NCBI RefSeq assembly: GCF_001644665.1
Contig: NZ_CP011393.1
Coordinates: forward strand, 1,510,001-1,574,000
Direction of reading: 5' to 3'
DNA length: 64,000 bases
Source of the DNA: Fervidobacterium pennivorans
GTDB lineage: Bacteria; Thermotogota; Thermotogae; Thermotogales; Fervidobacteriaceae
Each line of letters begins with the position of its first letter. The stretch's first letter is position 1. A program made the translations under genes and the position numbers. Positions 9,851 through 41,002 of the stretch are shown piece after piece. The notes under the pieces were generated by a model that had not been told where the DNA came from, made no database searches, and saw only the letters and a list, made by a program, of their open reading frames with translations.

Positions 9851-11158
9851 ATGTGTGGTATAGCTGGTGTATGGAACGTTGACGAGGCGTATAACGTTAT
9901 TCACGATGTTTTACTTACGCTCCAGCACAGAGGTCAGCAATCCGCAGGTGTAGTTGTGAACGGGTTCAGGTCGGTAAAGGGTGAAGGATTGGTTGAAAGT
10001 GTTCTGACTTCAGAACGTTACATTCCTGGCACCAAAGGAATCGGTCACGTACGTTATTCCACTTATGGCTCACTTGACGAAATCCAGCCGATAACAGCCC
10101 ACACCCTCAAAGGGAGAATTTCGGTTGCACATAACGGAAATATTGTTGATGCAGACGAAAAAAGAAGATTCATAATGGAAAGTGGAGGTATATTCGCAAC
10201 CACACTTGACACAGAGATTATTATCCACTATTTTTCCATAGCTCCCTATGAAAATCCGCGTGAATCGCTCCAATGGGCACTCTCCAGGATAAAAGCGGCG
10301 TATTCGATAGTGGTTTTGCACGATACATTCCTTGCAGCAGCAAGGGATTCCTTTGGCATCCGTCCACTCTTTTATGCCAAGTTTCAGGATGGCTATATTA
10401 TAGCATCCGAAGATGTAGCATTGAGGGTTTTAGGTTGCGAAGAAATAACGGAAATCGAACCTGGAACTGTTGTGTTTTTTACCGATAACAACCCACCTGA
10501 AATTGTCAGATTTGCTAAACGCGATGATAGATTTTGTTCGTTCGAGTTCGTCTACTTTGCTCGTCCTGATAGTAATTTCTACGGTGTGAACGTGCATGAA
10601 GTTAGAAAAGCGTTAGGAAGAAAACTATACGAAGAGCACAAGCTTCAAGCGGATATTGTTGTTCCTGTTTTGGACAGCGGGTTTTCCGGCGCGCTTGGTT
10701 ACAGCCAAGCATCTGGCATACCAATCGAATATGGATTGATAAGGAACCACTACATTGGACGGAGTTTTATCATGCCGAAAAATAGGCAAGACATTGTTCG
10801 AAGAAAACTGGCAGCTTTAAATGCCGTACTCGAGGGTAAGGAAGTTTTGTTAATTGACGACTCAATTGTTCGCGGAACAACGATGAATTTGATAGTCGAA
10901 ATGGTAAAAGAGGCTGGTGCTAAAAAGGTTTACGTTGGTATCCATTCACCACCTGTGATTGGACCTTGTAATTATGGGATAGATACATCGAGAAGAAGCG
11001 AACTGATTGCTTCTCAAAACGACATTCAAAAACTCCAAGAGTATGTTGGAGCAAATAAATTGGTTTACTTGTCTATTGAAGGATATCGAGAAGTCTTCGA
11101 AAACTGTGGGGTGCGTGGAATATGCATGGGGTGTTTCGATCTGAACTATCCAGTATGA
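9851..11158 (+). CDS. purF: Amidophosphoribosyltransferase
   Basis: 435 residues. First committed step of purine synthesis: PRPP plus glutamine to phosphoribosylamine. Starts MCGIAGVW, so Cys2 becomes the N-terminal nucleophile after Met removal; LQHRGQQSAG, GHVRYSTYG and AHNGNI define the glutaminase domain; the PRPP motif LIDDSIVRGTT lies near 335. The closing Cys-containing segment (VRGICMGCF) could bind a metal centre as in some PurF. GGGGGGA SD just upstream. First gene of the pur operon; its TGA overlaps the purN ATG. Confidence 0.95.
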   Translation: MCGIAGVWNVDEAYNVIHDVLLTLQHRGQQSAGVVVNGFRSVKGEGLVESVLTSERYIPGTKGIGHVRYSTYGSLDEIQPITAHTLKGRISVAHNGNIVDADEKRRFIMESGGIFATTLDTEIIIHYFSIAPYENPRESLQWALSRIKAAYSIVVLHDTFLAAARDSFGIRPLFYAKFQDGYIIASEDVALRVLGCEEITEIEPGTVVFFTDNNPPEIVRFAKRDDRFCSFEFVYFARPDSNFYGVNVHEVRKALGRKLYEEHKLQADIVVPVLDSGFSGALGYSQASGIPIEYGLIRNHYIGRSFIMPKNRQDIVRRKLAALNAVLEGKEVLLIDDSIVRGTTMNLIVEMVKEAGAKKVYVGIHSPPVIGPCNYGIDTSRRSELIASQNDIQKLQEYVGANKLVYLSIEGYREVFENCGVRGICMGCFDLNYPV

Positions 11159-11757
11159 ACTCTGAACAATTTAACAAACCAAGCATAGTCGTTCTTGCTT
11201 CCGGTAATGGAAGTAACTTCCAAGTGCTGGCAGAAAAATCACTTTCCGGCGAACTCATTGCTGATGTGAAAGCACTTATTGTCGACAGAGCATGTGGAGC
11301 AATTGAAAGGGCAAAGAAATTAGGTGTAGAGGTAATAATTCTTTCGAAACCTTGGTATGAGGACTTCGAAAAGGTTATGGCTAACTTAAAACCAGACTTG
11401 ATAGTGTTGGCGGGGTTTATGAGAATTATCCCTGAACATATCGTGGCTAAGTATTTCCCTAAGATAGTCAACATTCATCCATCTTTACTTCCAGCCTTTC
11501 CGGGAAAGGATGCGATAAAACAAGCGTATGATTATGGAGTCAAGGTAACGGGGATTACCATACATTTTGTAGACGCTGGTATAGATACCGGTCCGATAAT
11601 CTTTCAAAAAGCTATAGAGATTGAAGAGAACTGGGACTTGGAGACTTTGGAATCGAAAATTCACAAGCTTGAGCATGAGAACTATTGGAGGGTAATCAAC
11701 AATCTGCTTCACAAACCATACAAGATAGAAGGAAGAAAAGTTACGTGGGGGGTGTAA
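11155..11757 (+). CDS. purN: Phosphoribosylglycinamide formyltransferase
   Basis: 200 residues from ATG 11155, which overlaps the purF stop (ATGA), implying translational coupling; an in-frame ATG at 11122 is possible but lengthens the protein beyond family norm. Transfers formyl from 10-formyl-THF to GAR. Motifs: VLASGNGSNFQVL, IVDRACGAIERAK, VLAGFMRIIP, NIHPSLLPAFPG (catalytic N, H) and GITIHFVDAGIDTGPII (catalytic D). Confidence 0.94.
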   Translation: MNSEQFNKPSIVVLASGNGSNFQVLAEKSLSGELIADVKALIVDRACGAIERAKKLGVEVIILSKPWYEDFEKVMANLKPDLIVLAGFMRIIPEHIVAKYFPKIVNIHPSLLPAFPGKDAIKQAYDYGVKVTGITIHFVDAGIDTGPIIFQKAIEIEENWDLETLESKIHKLEHENYWRVINNLLHKPYKIEGRKVTWGV

Positions 11758-11761
11758 GTGT

Positions 11762-12685
11762 ATGGAATTTTTGCAGGTGGAAAACGTTAAGAAACTTGAG
11801 CTTGAAAGATACGATATCGAGTTGAGGTATGGTGAAAACGCACATGAGAGGGCTTTTATCTTTGGACAGCCTCAATTTGAATTGCTGCATGAAGGTAAAC
11901 AACTTTCGTACAACAACATACTGGATGCTGAAGCAGCTTGGGTTCTTGCCAAAAACTTACAAACAATCGGTGGTGGCGTTGCGGTTATAAAACACCAAAC
12001 ACCTTGTGGGGTATCGTATCTAAGAAATGATAGTGCTGAAGAAAAAATAAGTGCTGTCAAAAGGGCAATTCAGGCAGATAGTGAATCAAGCTACGGAGGA
12101 ATACTTGCAACAAGCTTCCCATTTACTTTGGATATGGCGAAAGCTATAAACATCTACCTTGAAGTTATCGTTGCACCGGATTTTGAACCACAAGCAGTGG
12201 AATACTTATCGAAAAAGAAAGTCAGACTGATAAAGCCAAAGGAATACACACCGTACGCTGGAAAAGTAGCATTTGGTAGCCTGGTTCTATCTGAAAGAAA
12301 ATTCGAAGGCGAACCGGAATTACTTTTCGGTGTACCATGTGATGTTAAAGAAATAAAATTTGCACTCATTGTTGTGGAATCAGTAAAATCTAACGCGATA
12401 GTGATCGTAAAAGATGGTGTCACTGCTGGCATTGGCGGAGGACAGCCGTCAAGAAAAAGGTCAGCGTGGATAGCCACAACCCTGGCAAAAGATAATACAA
12501 AAGGTGCGATAGCGGCGTCTGATGCATTTTTCCCATTCACAGATGGTTTGGAAATACTTATTGATGCAGGTATTAAATGCATCGTTGCTCCGCTCGGTTC
12601 TATACGAGACGATGAAGTGCTGAATTTTGCCCGGGAGAAGGGGATAACATTCTACAAGTCCCCAATAAGGCTCTTCAGACACTGA
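11762..12685 (+). CDS. purH: Stand-alone AICAR transformylase domain (PurH without IMP cyclohydrolase)
   Basis: 307 residues. Formylates AICAR to FAICAR with 10-formyl-THF. The protein begins at the transformylase domain: LRYGENAHERA, LSYNNILDAEAAW, IKHQTPCGV (catalytic Lys-His; N replaced by T in the usual KHxNPCG), GGGQPSRKRSA, and DAFFPFTDGLE. The N-terminal MGS-like IMP cyclohydrolase domain of normal PurH (about 200 residues, over 500 in total) is absent and there is only 4 bp to purN, so no remnant of it exists here. Cyclisation to IMP must be done by another protein outside the window or be divergent. Confidence 0.9.
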   Translation: MEFLQVENVKKLELERYDIELRYGENAHERAFIFGQPQFELLHEGKQLSYNNILDAEAAWVLAKNLQTIGGGVAVIKHQTPCGVSYLRNDSAEEKISAVKRAIQADSESSYGGILATSFPFTLDMAKAINIYLEVIVAPDFEPQAVEYLSKKKVRLIKPKEYTPYAGKVAFGSLVLSERKFEGEPELLFGVPCDVKEIKFALIVVESVKSNAIVIVKDGVTAGIGGGQPSRKRSAWIATTLAKDNTKGAIAASDAFFPFTDGLEILIDAGIKCIVAPLGSIRDDEVLNFAREKGITFYKSPIRLFRH

Positions 12686-12724: not shown

Positions 12725-13966
12725 ATGAGCGAAGTTGGAAGAATTAAAAAAATTTTGGTGCTTGGAAGTGGTGGAAGGGAACACGCTATAGGATGGGCGT
12801 TCAAAAACGCTGGTTGTGAAGTTTCTTTCTACCCAGGTAACGCCGGGACAAAGCTAGTGGGTAAAAATTTGAGTATTAACGAAGCTGAGCTCTTTGCTGG
12901 TAATATCTTAGCTGATTTTGATTTAGTAATTCCCGGCTCTGAGGATTTCTTGGTTAAGGGTATCGCAGATGGAAAAATAAACGTCTTTGGACCAGATTCT
13001 GCTGGTGCCAGACTCGAAGGTTCAAAATGTTTTGCAAAACTCTTTATGGAGAAATACAATATACCTACCGCAAAATTCCAGATTGCGCGAAACAAAGTTC
13101 AGCTTGTTGATGCACTCAAATCATTCACACCTCCTTATGTTATTAAAGCAGATGGGCTTGCGCAAGGTAAAGGTGTGATAATAGAGGATAACTTTTCAAA
13201 TGCTATTGAAAACGGTAGCAAACTCATGGATGGAACTCTAATTCCAGGGGTTAGTGGTCCCGTGGTTGTGGATGAATTCTTAAAGGGTTGGGAATTATCT
13301 GCCATTGCCATCGTAAATGGTCGCAAATTCACACTGCTACCGTTCACCCGTGATTACAAGCGTGCCTTTACGGGTAACAAAGGGCCAAACACCGGTGGGA
13401 TGGGAGCTTATGGACCTGTTGAAATAACCCAGAAACTGATAGAGAAAATAAAGACCATATTTGATAAAACATTGTTCGGGTTGGAAAAAGAAGGAATTTA
13501 CTACAAAGGTTTTCTTTATATAGGCCTTATGATTGTAGAGGATGAACCATACGTTTTGGAATACAACGTCCGACTTGGAGACCCAGAAACTGAAGTGATA
13601 GCTGCTATGGAGCCTGAAAAGTTTGTAGAAAACGTTCTAAAGGCTTTTAAAAACGAAGAATTTGATGAATACAGACCATCAAGATTCGCGGTTGATGTGG
13701 TTGTTGCCTCGGAAGGCTACCCAGAAAGTCCTAGAAAAGGGCAAAAGATTGTGATTGAGAATATCGAAAATAGTAAAAAAGAGGGAAACATACTCTTCTA
13801 TGCTGGTGTCAGAGAACAAAACGGGGAGTTGGTTGTTTCCGGAGGAAGGGTTCTACATTCTGTTGGAACTGATAACGAATTGGGAAAAGCGAGGGAAAAG
13901 GCATACAAGAACCTTCAAAATATACATTTCGAAGGTATGTTTTACAGAGATGACATCGCTTTGTAG
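12725..13966 (+). CDS. purD: Phosphoribosylamine-glycine ligase
   Basis: 413 residues, ATP-grasp enzyme making GAR from phosphoribosylamine, glycine and ATP. N-domain GSGGREHAIGW, central IKADGLAQGKGV (ATP-binding Lys), FLKGWELSA, the GARS signature region GPNTGGMGAYGP near 223, and LEYNVRLGDPETE (metal-binding). Complete length. Sits 39 bp after the transformylase gene in the pur operon. Confidence 0.95.
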   Translation: MSEVGRIKKILVLGSGGREHAIGWAFKNAGCEVSFYPGNAGTKLVGKNLSINEAELFAGNILADFDLVIPGSEDFLVKGIADGKINVFGPDSAGARLEGSKCFAKLFMEKYNIPTAKFQIARNKVQLVDALKSFTPPYVIKADGLAQGKGVIIEDNFSNAIENGSKLMDGTLIPGVSGPVVVDEFLKGWELSAIAIVNGRKFTLLPFTRDYKRAFTGNKGPNTGGMGAYGPVEITQKLIEKIKTIFDKTLFGLEKEGIYYKGFLYIGLMIVEDEPYVLEYNVRLGDPETEVIAAMEPEKFVENVLKAFKNEEFDEYRPSRFAVDVVVASEGYPESPRKGQKIVIENIENSKKEGNILFYAGVREQNGELVVSGGRVLHSVGTDNELGKAREKAYKNLQNIHFEGMFYRDDIAL

Positions 13967-14000
13967 TTTGTTATTTTGGGTAATTATGCGGGGTGAGAAT

Positions 14001-14942
14001 ATGAATGGAGAAGGGAGAAAATACACATACTCAGGTTCGGGTGTGGATGTCCTTAGAAATGATGAATTTACCGATTATATTAAAAGCATCGTCAAAATTC
14101 CGGAATGGGTGGTTAAAGAACCTACAGGATACGCTACGATTTTGAATTTCACGAATCCTCCGATAGTATTAACGGCAGACGGTGTTGGTTCGAAGTTGTT
14201 GTTACATATTGAACACAACAGATGGGAGGATGCAGCCCAGGATTTGATAGCGATGAACTACAACGATATTGTATGTGTTGGCGGATTTCCAAAAGCATTT
14301 GTCGATTATTTGGGTGTGAACCATATAGACAAAGAACACTACGAATTTATCAAAGCGCTTGCCAAGAAGCTTTCAGAATTGAATATGGCACTTGTTGCTG
14401 GTGAAACGGCGGAAATACCATCTATTTACGGTGATAAAGATTGGGATGTTGCAGGTTTTTGTATTGGAACGCTTCAAAGAAGGATACCTGTTGAAACAAT
14501 AAATTATGAAGACTTAATCATAGGATTACCCGCCAGCGGGTTTCATTCCAACGGATGGTCACTGATAAGAAAAATTTTAAAAGAAGAAAAGATAAGCATC
14601 AAAGAGTTAGGTTTCGACCTCCTGAGAGGTACAAGAATATACAGTGAGGTTACCAATGTCTTTGAACTTGTAAAAGGTATTGCCCACGTTACAGGTGGTG
14701 GTGTTCTGAGAGCGTTAAGAAGAGTATTAAGGGATAAGGGATGGGAAATTACTATTAGATTGCCAGATTACATGCGATGGATGTTGAAATTTGTTGAAAT
14801 TGAGGAAGCTATGCGAACATTTAATATGGGCTATGGCATGATTTTAATTGTCTCGAGGGAAAATTTAAACAAGGTGTTAGAACTCACAGGTGGTGAGGTT
14901 ATAGGCGTGGTTAGTAAAAATACAAAAATCGTGGTACAATAG
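14001..14942 (+). CDS. purM: Phosphoribosylformylglycinamidine cyclo-ligase
   Basis: 313 residues from ATG 14001 with GGGGTGAG upstream; the much longer open frame from 13755 is only a shadow across purD. AIR synthetase: closes the imidazole ring with ATP. Motifs YSGSGVDVL, TADGVGSKL (normally DGVGTK), DLIAMNYNDI, VAGETAEIPSIY, SGFHSNGWSLIR and VTGGGV. Slightly shorter than the usual 330-345, mainly at the N terminus. Last pur gene here; LemA gene follows 37 bp later. Confidence 0.92.
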   Translation: MNGEGRKYTYSGSGVDVLRNDEFTDYIKSIVKIPEWVVKEPTGYATILNFTNPPIVLTADGVGSKLLLHIEHNRWEDAAQDLIAMNYNDIVCVGGFPKAFVDYLGVNHIDKEHYEFIKALAKKLSELNMALVAGETAEIPSIYGDKDWDVAGFCIGTLQRRIPVETINYEDLIIGLPASGFHSNGWSLIRKILKEEKISIKELGFDLLRGTRIYSEVTNVFELVKGIAHVTGGGVLRALRRVLRDKGWEITIRLPDYMRWMLKFVEIEEAMRTFNMGYGMILIVSRENLNKVLELTGGEVIGVVSKNTKIVVQ

Positions 14943-39706: not shown

Positions 39707-41002
39707 ATGGTAGAGCGATACGCACTTGAACCATTGAAAAGTTTATGGACCTTGAAAGCTCAGTATGAAAGATGGCTCGAAGTTGAACTTGCCGTGGTTG
39801 AAGCATACGAGCAAGTTGGTGTTGCACCAAAAGGAACATCTGAAGAAATCAGAAAGAAAGCAGTTATTGATGTGGATGACATATTAGCTACAGAGCAAGT
39901 GGTTGACCATGATGTTATTGCGTTTATAAAGTCCGTAACAAAAAATATGGGAGATGAAGCCAGGTACTTCCATTATGGGCTAACTTCGTCTGACGTTGTT
40001 GACACGGCTAATTCACTTGCACTTGTCCGGGCAACAGATATCATTTTGGAATCGATGGAAAAGCTAAGTGCGGTTCTATATGAGAAAGCCCTCCAATACA
40101 AAACGCTTCCTACGATTGGTAGAACACACGGTGTACATGCAGAGCCCACATCTTTTGGGTTGAAGTTTCTCTCGTGGTATGCGGAGCTTCTCAGAGATAT
40201 TGAAAGACTGAAAAATGTTCGTGAAGAGATAGCTGTTGGAAAATTAAGTGGTGCTGTTGGCAATTACGCAAATATCTCTCCAGAAGTTGAAAGAATCGCA
40301 CTGGAAAAGCTTGGATTAAAACCGACACCCGTTGCCACACAAGTTATCTCGCGTGATTACATAGCTCATTTGCTTGCAACATTTGCTCTAATTGCAGGCT
40401 TAATTGAGCGCATAGCAATTGAAATAAGGCATTTACAACGTACGGAAGTGCTTGAAGCTATGGAACCATTCAAGGAAGGACAGCGAGGTTCTTCAGCCAT
40501 GCCTCATAAGAAAAATCCAATCCTTTGCGAACGATTGACGGGTATGGCGAGGTTGATGAGAAGCTACGCACAAGTCGCTTTTGAAAACATGGCACTCTGG
40601 CACGAAAGGGATATTTCCCACTCATCTGCAGAAAGATACATACTCCCGGATTCAACAATGACAATATACTATATGCTTGAAAAGGCAAGATACCTGATTG
40701 GAAACTTGAAGGTCTTTGAAGACAAAGTTAAAAAGAACATTGACATAACTCAGGGGTTGGTTTATTCTCAAAGAATACTACTTGCACTTGTAGAAGCTGG
40801 AATGAGTAGGGAAGAGGCTTACACACTTGTTCAAAAATACGCCTTGGAATGCTGGGAAACAGGAGAGTCATTTAAAGAGAGAGTTCGTTCCGATGAAAAA
40901 GTACGTCAGTTAATCACAGAAGAAAAGTTTGAAGAACTCTTTAGACCGGACTACTATCTTAGGAATATTGATAAAATCTATGAAAGGTTTGAAAAAAGTT
41001 AA
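39707..41002 (+). CDS. purB: Adenylosuccinate lyase
   Basis: 431 residues from ATG 39707 behind GGGGGGTG. Cleaves SAICAR to AICAR and adenylosuccinate to AMP. Motifs: HYGLTSSDVVDTA, TIGRTHGVHAEPTSFG (catalytic His), KLSGAVGNYAN and the signature GSSAMPHKKNP with the mobile loop Ser. Separated from the other pur genes of this window by 25 kb. Confidence 0.95.
   Translation: MVERYALEPLKSLWTLKAQYERWLEVELAVVEAYEQVGVAPKGTSEEIRKKAVIDVDDILATEQVVDHDVIAFIKSVTKNMGDEARYFHYGLTSSDVVDTANSLALVRATDIILESMEKLSAVLYEKALQYKTLPTIGRTHGVHAEPTSFGLKFLSWYAELLRDIERLKNVREEIAVGKLSGAVGNYANISPEVERIALEKLGLKPTPVATQVISRDYIAHLLATFALIAGLIERIAIEIRHLQRTEVLEAMEPFKEGQRGSSAMPHKKNPILCERLTGMARLMRSYAQVAFENMALWHERDISHSSAERYILPDSTMTIYYMLEKARYLIGNLKVFEDKVKKNIDITQGLVYSQRILLALVEAGMSREEAYTLVQKYALECWETGESFKERVRSDEKVRQLITEEKFEELFRPDYYLRNIDKIYERFEKS

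Follow-up and report, generated by a model that had tools for sequence, protein, structure and literature searches.

Purine synthesis in Fervidobacterium pennivorans: a lone AICAR transformylase in the operon and a predicted cyclohydrolase from a second PurH lineage

The purine operon and its shortened purH

The window, that is, the whole stretch of 64,000 nucleotides of F. pennivorans DNA that was analyzed (contig NZ_CP011393.1, positions 1,510,001 to 1,574,000), carries genes of de novo purine synthesis in the order purF-purN-[lone AICAR transformylase]-purD-purM, and purB lies on the same strand. The features, in window coordinates, are as follows.

9851 to 11158, plus strand: purF, amidophosphoribosyltransferase (TIGR01134, 414.9 bits, over the cut-off)
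11122 to 11757, plus strand: purN, GAR formyltransferase (TIGR00639, 180 bits, over the cut-off)
11747 to 11752, plus strand: GGGGGG run, a putative ribosome-binding site, 9 bases before the ATG of the next gene and within the end of purN
11762 to 12685, plus strand: lone AICAR transformylase, the C-terminal domain of PurH ("PurH1"), 307 aa, ATG start
12725 to 13966, plus strand: purD, GAR synthetase (TIGR00877, 375.9 bits, over the cut-off)
13995 to 14942, plus strand: purM, AIR synthetase, start codon approximate (TIGR00878, 228.1 bits, slightly below the cut-off of 236.35; PF00586 and PF02769)
39707 to 40990 (G000:C1:1549707-1550990), plus strand: purB, adenylosuccinate lyase (TIGR00928, 503.2 bits)

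As a sequence-only reading of this DNA had noticed, purN stops 4 bp before the ATG at 11762, and the gene that follows encodes the AICAR transformylase (AICARFT) domain of PurH alone. Its product matches only positions 76-309 of the PF01808 profile (E = 3.1e-51), the Pfam search finds no MGS/cyclohydrolase domain in it, and its matches to the NCBIfam PurH models begin at profile position 197 or 213 and run to the end. It does not belong with the bifunctional PurH proteins, as it lacks the N-terminal MGS-type cyclohydrolase and, with the TIGR00355 and NF002049 models, scores far under the curated cut-offs (177.8 against 528 and 253.9 against 402 bits). Monofunctional AICARFTs of the NF005492 (PRK07106) type likewise have a transformylase and no cyclohydrolase; the window protein reaches 109.2 bits with that model against a cut-off of 415, and this stand-alone form probably has a separate origin. 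The short Thermotoga-type PurH, TM1249 of Thermotoga maritima (1ZCZ), is bifunctional and differs from the window protein in this respect, but its transformylase domain aligns with it end to end, window protein residues 11-307 pairing with chain residues 171-464 (E = 2.7e-114), and the two fall into the same tree clade.

All 21 transformylase positions checked by alignment-column counts are intact, and the PF01808 region contains the RYGEN, KHxxPCG, KSNA, GQxxR, SDAFFPF and RD motifs and the terminal R/H that place the protein among AICAR transformylases. Its predicted activity is the 10-formyl-THF-dependent formylation of AICAR. Nine more genomes, from this genus and its sister genus, encode orthologues with nearly the same start (303-319 aa, 66-93% identity); measured against the nearest relative, the gene has a dN/dS of 0.08.

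The second PurH-type protein of the genome

The sole further place in the genome (2.06 Mb in a single contig) that matches both PF01808 and PF02142 is a gene for a 432-aa protein at G000:C1:88159-89454, which is unlinked to the window gene, lying about 0.63 Mb from it if the contig is circular and 1.43 Mb otherwise. The protein comprises the MGS domain (PF02142, E = 3.1e-25) and the start of PF01808, and the PurH models match it over residues 2-204 only (267 bits). Within this part, each of the 17 cyclohydrolase positions examined is intact; among them are Lys66, Tyr104, Asp125 and Lys137, four residues that have been named as important (PMC3261824). With an MGS fold, the key residues and the nucleotide-binding motifs, the protein belongs to the MGS-type IMP cyclohydrolases (PurH2/PurJ) and is predicted to convert FAICAR to IMP. 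The model of this domain resembles ForH (PDB 6NKO), a stand-alone PurH N-domain fold, with a TM score of 0.83-0.86 by target length. ForH, which acts in formycin biosynthesis, is a lone domain, whereas the 432-aa protein carries a C-terminal remnant.

No further MGS-type cyclohydrolase was found in the genome, the only other MGS match being a 148-aa frame. PurO (PF07826) and PurP (PF06849) are also absent from it, although the former profile detects its controls in Methanocaldococcus jannaschii and Haloferax volcanii and the latter its controls in three archaea; all three were dropped as candidates for the missing enzyme. The sequence-only reading had feared that the last step was lacking, reasoned that a separate cyclohydrolase must exist, whether PurO-like, a lone PurH N-domain or something unknown, and proposed a genome search for the MGS-type enzyme, PurO and PurP. 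That search yields the first and neither of the others: the expected separate enzyme has its counterpart in the 432-aa gene, the lone N-domain was right in substance and the PurO-like candidate was not, and the supposed gap is filled by a predicted cyclohydrolase. As purL and purC are present as well, all the pathway genes searched for (purF, purN, purD, purM, purL, purC and purB) are found, and de novo purine synthesis looks complete on paper, with its final two steps on two proteins.

For the lineage of second-locus PurH paralogues we use the name PurH-B, because "PurH2" already denotes the cyclohydrolase domain (PMC3261824). No Pfam family matches the final ~230 residues of the 432-aa protein, and the transformylase residues are all lost or unalignable there, so that this part does not count as an AICAR transformylase. 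In profile comparison by hhalign, the remnant matches the better preserved, though also decayed, transformylase domains that PurH-B has elsewhere (probability 88%, E = 2.9e-6); the score is 47.8, and 30 column-shuffled controls reach at most 19.9. Those domains in turn match intact AICARFT domains (100%, E = 6e-47). Set directly against intact AICARFT domains, the remnant gives no significant match, and its homology thus rests on the intermediates. In a relative from the same family (G011, f1 g4), the transformylase start of PurH-B is still recognized by Pfam. Judged from these sequence comparisons, the remnant is a decayed transformylase domain of PurH-B.

Purifying selection acts on the remnant, with a dN/dS of 0.07-0.19 in the pairs that allow an estimate, and is laxer there than on the cyclohydrolase part (about 0.02-0.03), the exact ratios being unreliable because dS is saturated in several pairs. 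In G000/G004, the least diverged and only well-measured pair, the cyclohydrolase part stands at 0.026 and the remnant at 0.188. AlphaFold returns a pLDDT of 35.8 for the remnant alone without an alignment; with an alignment of 10 sequences, the cyclohydrolase part is modeled confidently and the remnant with low confidence. Since this alignment includes rows of intact PurH, it is partly circular that Foldseek matches the full-length model to PurH, and we do not take this match as evidence on the remnant.

Two PurH lineages and their distribution

A tree of cyclohydrolase domains places that of Fervidobacterium among the second-locus copies of families f1, f2, f4, f8 and f9 (UFBoot 100), a PurH-B clade distinct from the N-domains of the operon-encoded PurH proteins. 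A tree of AICARFT domains unites the window gene with the other lone AICARFTs and with short PurH of the Thermotoga type (UFBoot 100); the inner order of this clade, and hence the order of domain losses, is weakly supported (backbone 34-48). From this separate placement it follows that the two halves stem from two PurH lineages, and the cyclohydrolase is, by its phylogenetic position, part of an old Thermotogota-wide PurH paralogue and not a piece severed from the window gene.

The arrangement varies among the 61 genomes of the class that were surveyed. Fervidobacterium (g1) and g2 combine a lone AICARFT with the cyclohydrolase-remnant protein; g5, probably Thermosipho, pairs a lone AICARFT of 297-299 aa with a lone cyclohydrolase of 199-204 aa, and G023 has a lone AICARFT, a lone cyclohydrolase and a decayed PurH-B. 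A fused short PurH (452-464 aa) accompanies a strongly decayed PurH-B (346-379 aa) in g7 and g9, which appear from their PurH to be Thermotogaceae. Fused PurH occurs with a lone cyclohydrolase-like gene in f2 and f8, and mostly with a decayed PurH-B in f4, f5, f6 and f9.

The fate of Tyr104 follows this distribution. It is kept in every PurH-B of f1 g1, g2 and g5, where the operon gene lacks the cyclohydrolase, and it is replaced where a complete operon PurH stands beside it (by Arg in 10 sequences of f2 and 3 of f8, by Cys in G051 and by Pro in G060); in the four g3 sequences, from genomes that have lost purine synthesis, it is Ser. The single exception is G011, whose PurH-B keeps Tyr104 beside a complete operon PurH (L060, G011:C1:363000-371500). 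In the tree, this full-length PurH falls with f9 (UFBoot 100), which suggests that it, or the pur operon, may have been replaced recently through transfer. As the lineages are few and related, the match is a strong pattern and not a statistical test.

Against this background, other explanations of the short purH can be weighed. Truncation by a sequencing or assembly error has a negligible chance of being right, given that nine orthologues in the genus and its sister genus share the domain start and that the ribosome-binding-site-like run and the ATG stand right behind purN; a frameshift or assembly artefact is refuted by these like starts together with the dN/dS of 0.08. It would be simpler if one ancestral Fervidobacterium purH had broken in two and halves of shared parentage had drifted apart, as the sequence-only reading had envisaged in case a lone N-terminal gene turned up. 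One genome does contain both halves, each intact only in the residues of its own activity. The cyclohydrolase, however, groups with PurH-B (UFBoot 100) and not with the cyclohydrolase domains of Thermotoga-type PurH, the protein bears a decayed transformylase domain of its own, and relatives contain full PurH and PurH-B together. That a split took place is therefore upheld in substance, that it was simple is not, and descent from one broken gene is improbable.

Less likely still, in our estimate, is the case that the genome belongs to a purine auxotroph, or to a user of some other cyclohydrolase, and that the 432-aa protein has a different job. PurH-B evidently does have another role in relatives without purine synthesis, which lends this idea some weight; against it, all cyclohydrolase residues are intact in Fervidobacterium at a dN/dS of about 0.02-0.03, and the remaining pathway genes that were searched for are all present.

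It is thus very probable that two unlinked genes have taken the place of the bifunctional PurH, a Thermotoga-type transformylase and a PurH-B cyclohydrolase with a decayed transformylase remnant. This reading draws on the two genes, their intact residues, the absence of PurO and PurP, the paralogue tree, the Tyr104 match and purifying selection; from these we infer what the two enzymes do, in what order the losses came and what the remnant is for. PurH-B would have pre-existed in the genome, probably in another role, and its presence would have let the operon gene shed the cyclohydrolase domain while PurH-B retained its active site; the window gene would have arisen from a short, Thermotoga-type PurH by loss of the N-terminal domain. 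The window protein would convert AICAR and 10-formyl-THF to FAICAR, which would have to transfer from one protein to another before the MGS-type domain of the 432-aa protein closes the ring to give IMP. The ~230-aa remnant, being under selection, may serve as a dimerization scaffold for the cyclohydrolase or as a binding surface for the active transformylase. Given that the two avian PurH domains function when separated (PMC3261824), the split requires no new chemistry.

A putative second role of PurH-B and known split systems

PurH-B has been retained even where de novo purine synthesis is lost (g3, g12, g14, G056 and G045). In g3, genome profile searches find no AICARFT, purL or purC and no purD above the cut-off, and the lone cyclohydrolase-like gene with Tyr104Ser (L018-L021; G010, G014, G016 and G018) has a dN/dS of 0.03-0.06, which means strong purifying selection. 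For doubly decayed Thermotoga-type PurH-B copies the value is 0.16-0.19. All 53 PurH-B sequences, 20 of them decayed at both sites, share Gly161, Asp162, Arg168 and Arg169 without exception, whereas only Arg168 among them is well conserved in ordinary PurH (84%). Purifying selection on decayed PurH-B, even where de novo purine synthesis is missing, points to a probable second role.

Several neighborhoods of PurH-B (L026, L031, L027, L029 and L024) touch on salvage, including a xanthine/uracil permease and a comF-type phosphoribosyltransferase in f2, uracil phosphoribosyltransferase and another phosphoribosyltransferase in G055, SurE in G049 and S-adenosylhomocysteine hydrolase in G051; in g7, the neighbor is a comF-type gene. 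The salvage link is not general, since upstream of the 432-aa gene this Fervidobacterium has genes for a chemotaxis receptor and a short-chain dehydrogenase. The f3 genomes have a PurH-derived protein of 346-379 aa with both active sites decayed and the G-D-x(5)-R-R block in place; its gene (L051:4213-5292, L050:4154-5191, L048:2535-3608 and relatives) stands directly 5' of a comF-type phosphoribosyltransferase gene. On balance, we incline slightly toward the view that Thermotogota PurH-B has a conserved second role outside IMP synthesis, probably in nucleobase salvage or its regulation, in which the invariant G-D-x(5)-R-R helical block is central. Its active sites would have decayed in most lineages, and in Fervidobacterium and Thermosipho-like relatives it would be the sole IMP cyclohydrolase, freeing the operon PurH to lose a domain.

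Outside archaea, PurH has been described as almost uniformly fused (PMC3261824, PMC6797443). In archaea, stand-alone PurH1 (AICARFT) and PurH2 (Archaeoglobus AF1811) carry a single PurH domain per protein, as is seen here (PMC3261824, PMC6797443), and a lone PurH2 has been demonstrated to turn FAICAR into IMP and to complement E. coli (PMC6797443), while the partner step is usually assigned to PurP or PurO (PMC3261824). Unlike the archaeal case, both steps in Fervidobacterium are PurH-derived, from two PurH lineages, and the cyclohydrolase retains a decayed transformylase domain. In Caldimicrobium (G061; L117, L118 and L119), a lone cyclohydrolase of about 196 aa occurs with two AICARFT-type genes in 437- and 444-aa frames, so a split PurH in bacteria is not unique to Thermotogota. 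Our literature search, which was limited, found no papers on PurH pseudoenzymes and none on purH or purine biosynthesis in Fervidobacterium, of which one may exist elsewhere. Split PurH was thus already known, mainly in archaea, and the Fervidobacterium case adds to it a probable exchange between paralogues.

For this bacterial family, the two last steps of purine synthesis appear to have been separated through paralogue exchange, the loss of one active site correlating with the retention of the other. A truncated purH in these genomes should accordingly be annotated neither as an error nor as a sign of auxotrophy, and the case draws attention to a conserved PurH-derived protein of Thermotogota with a putative further role.
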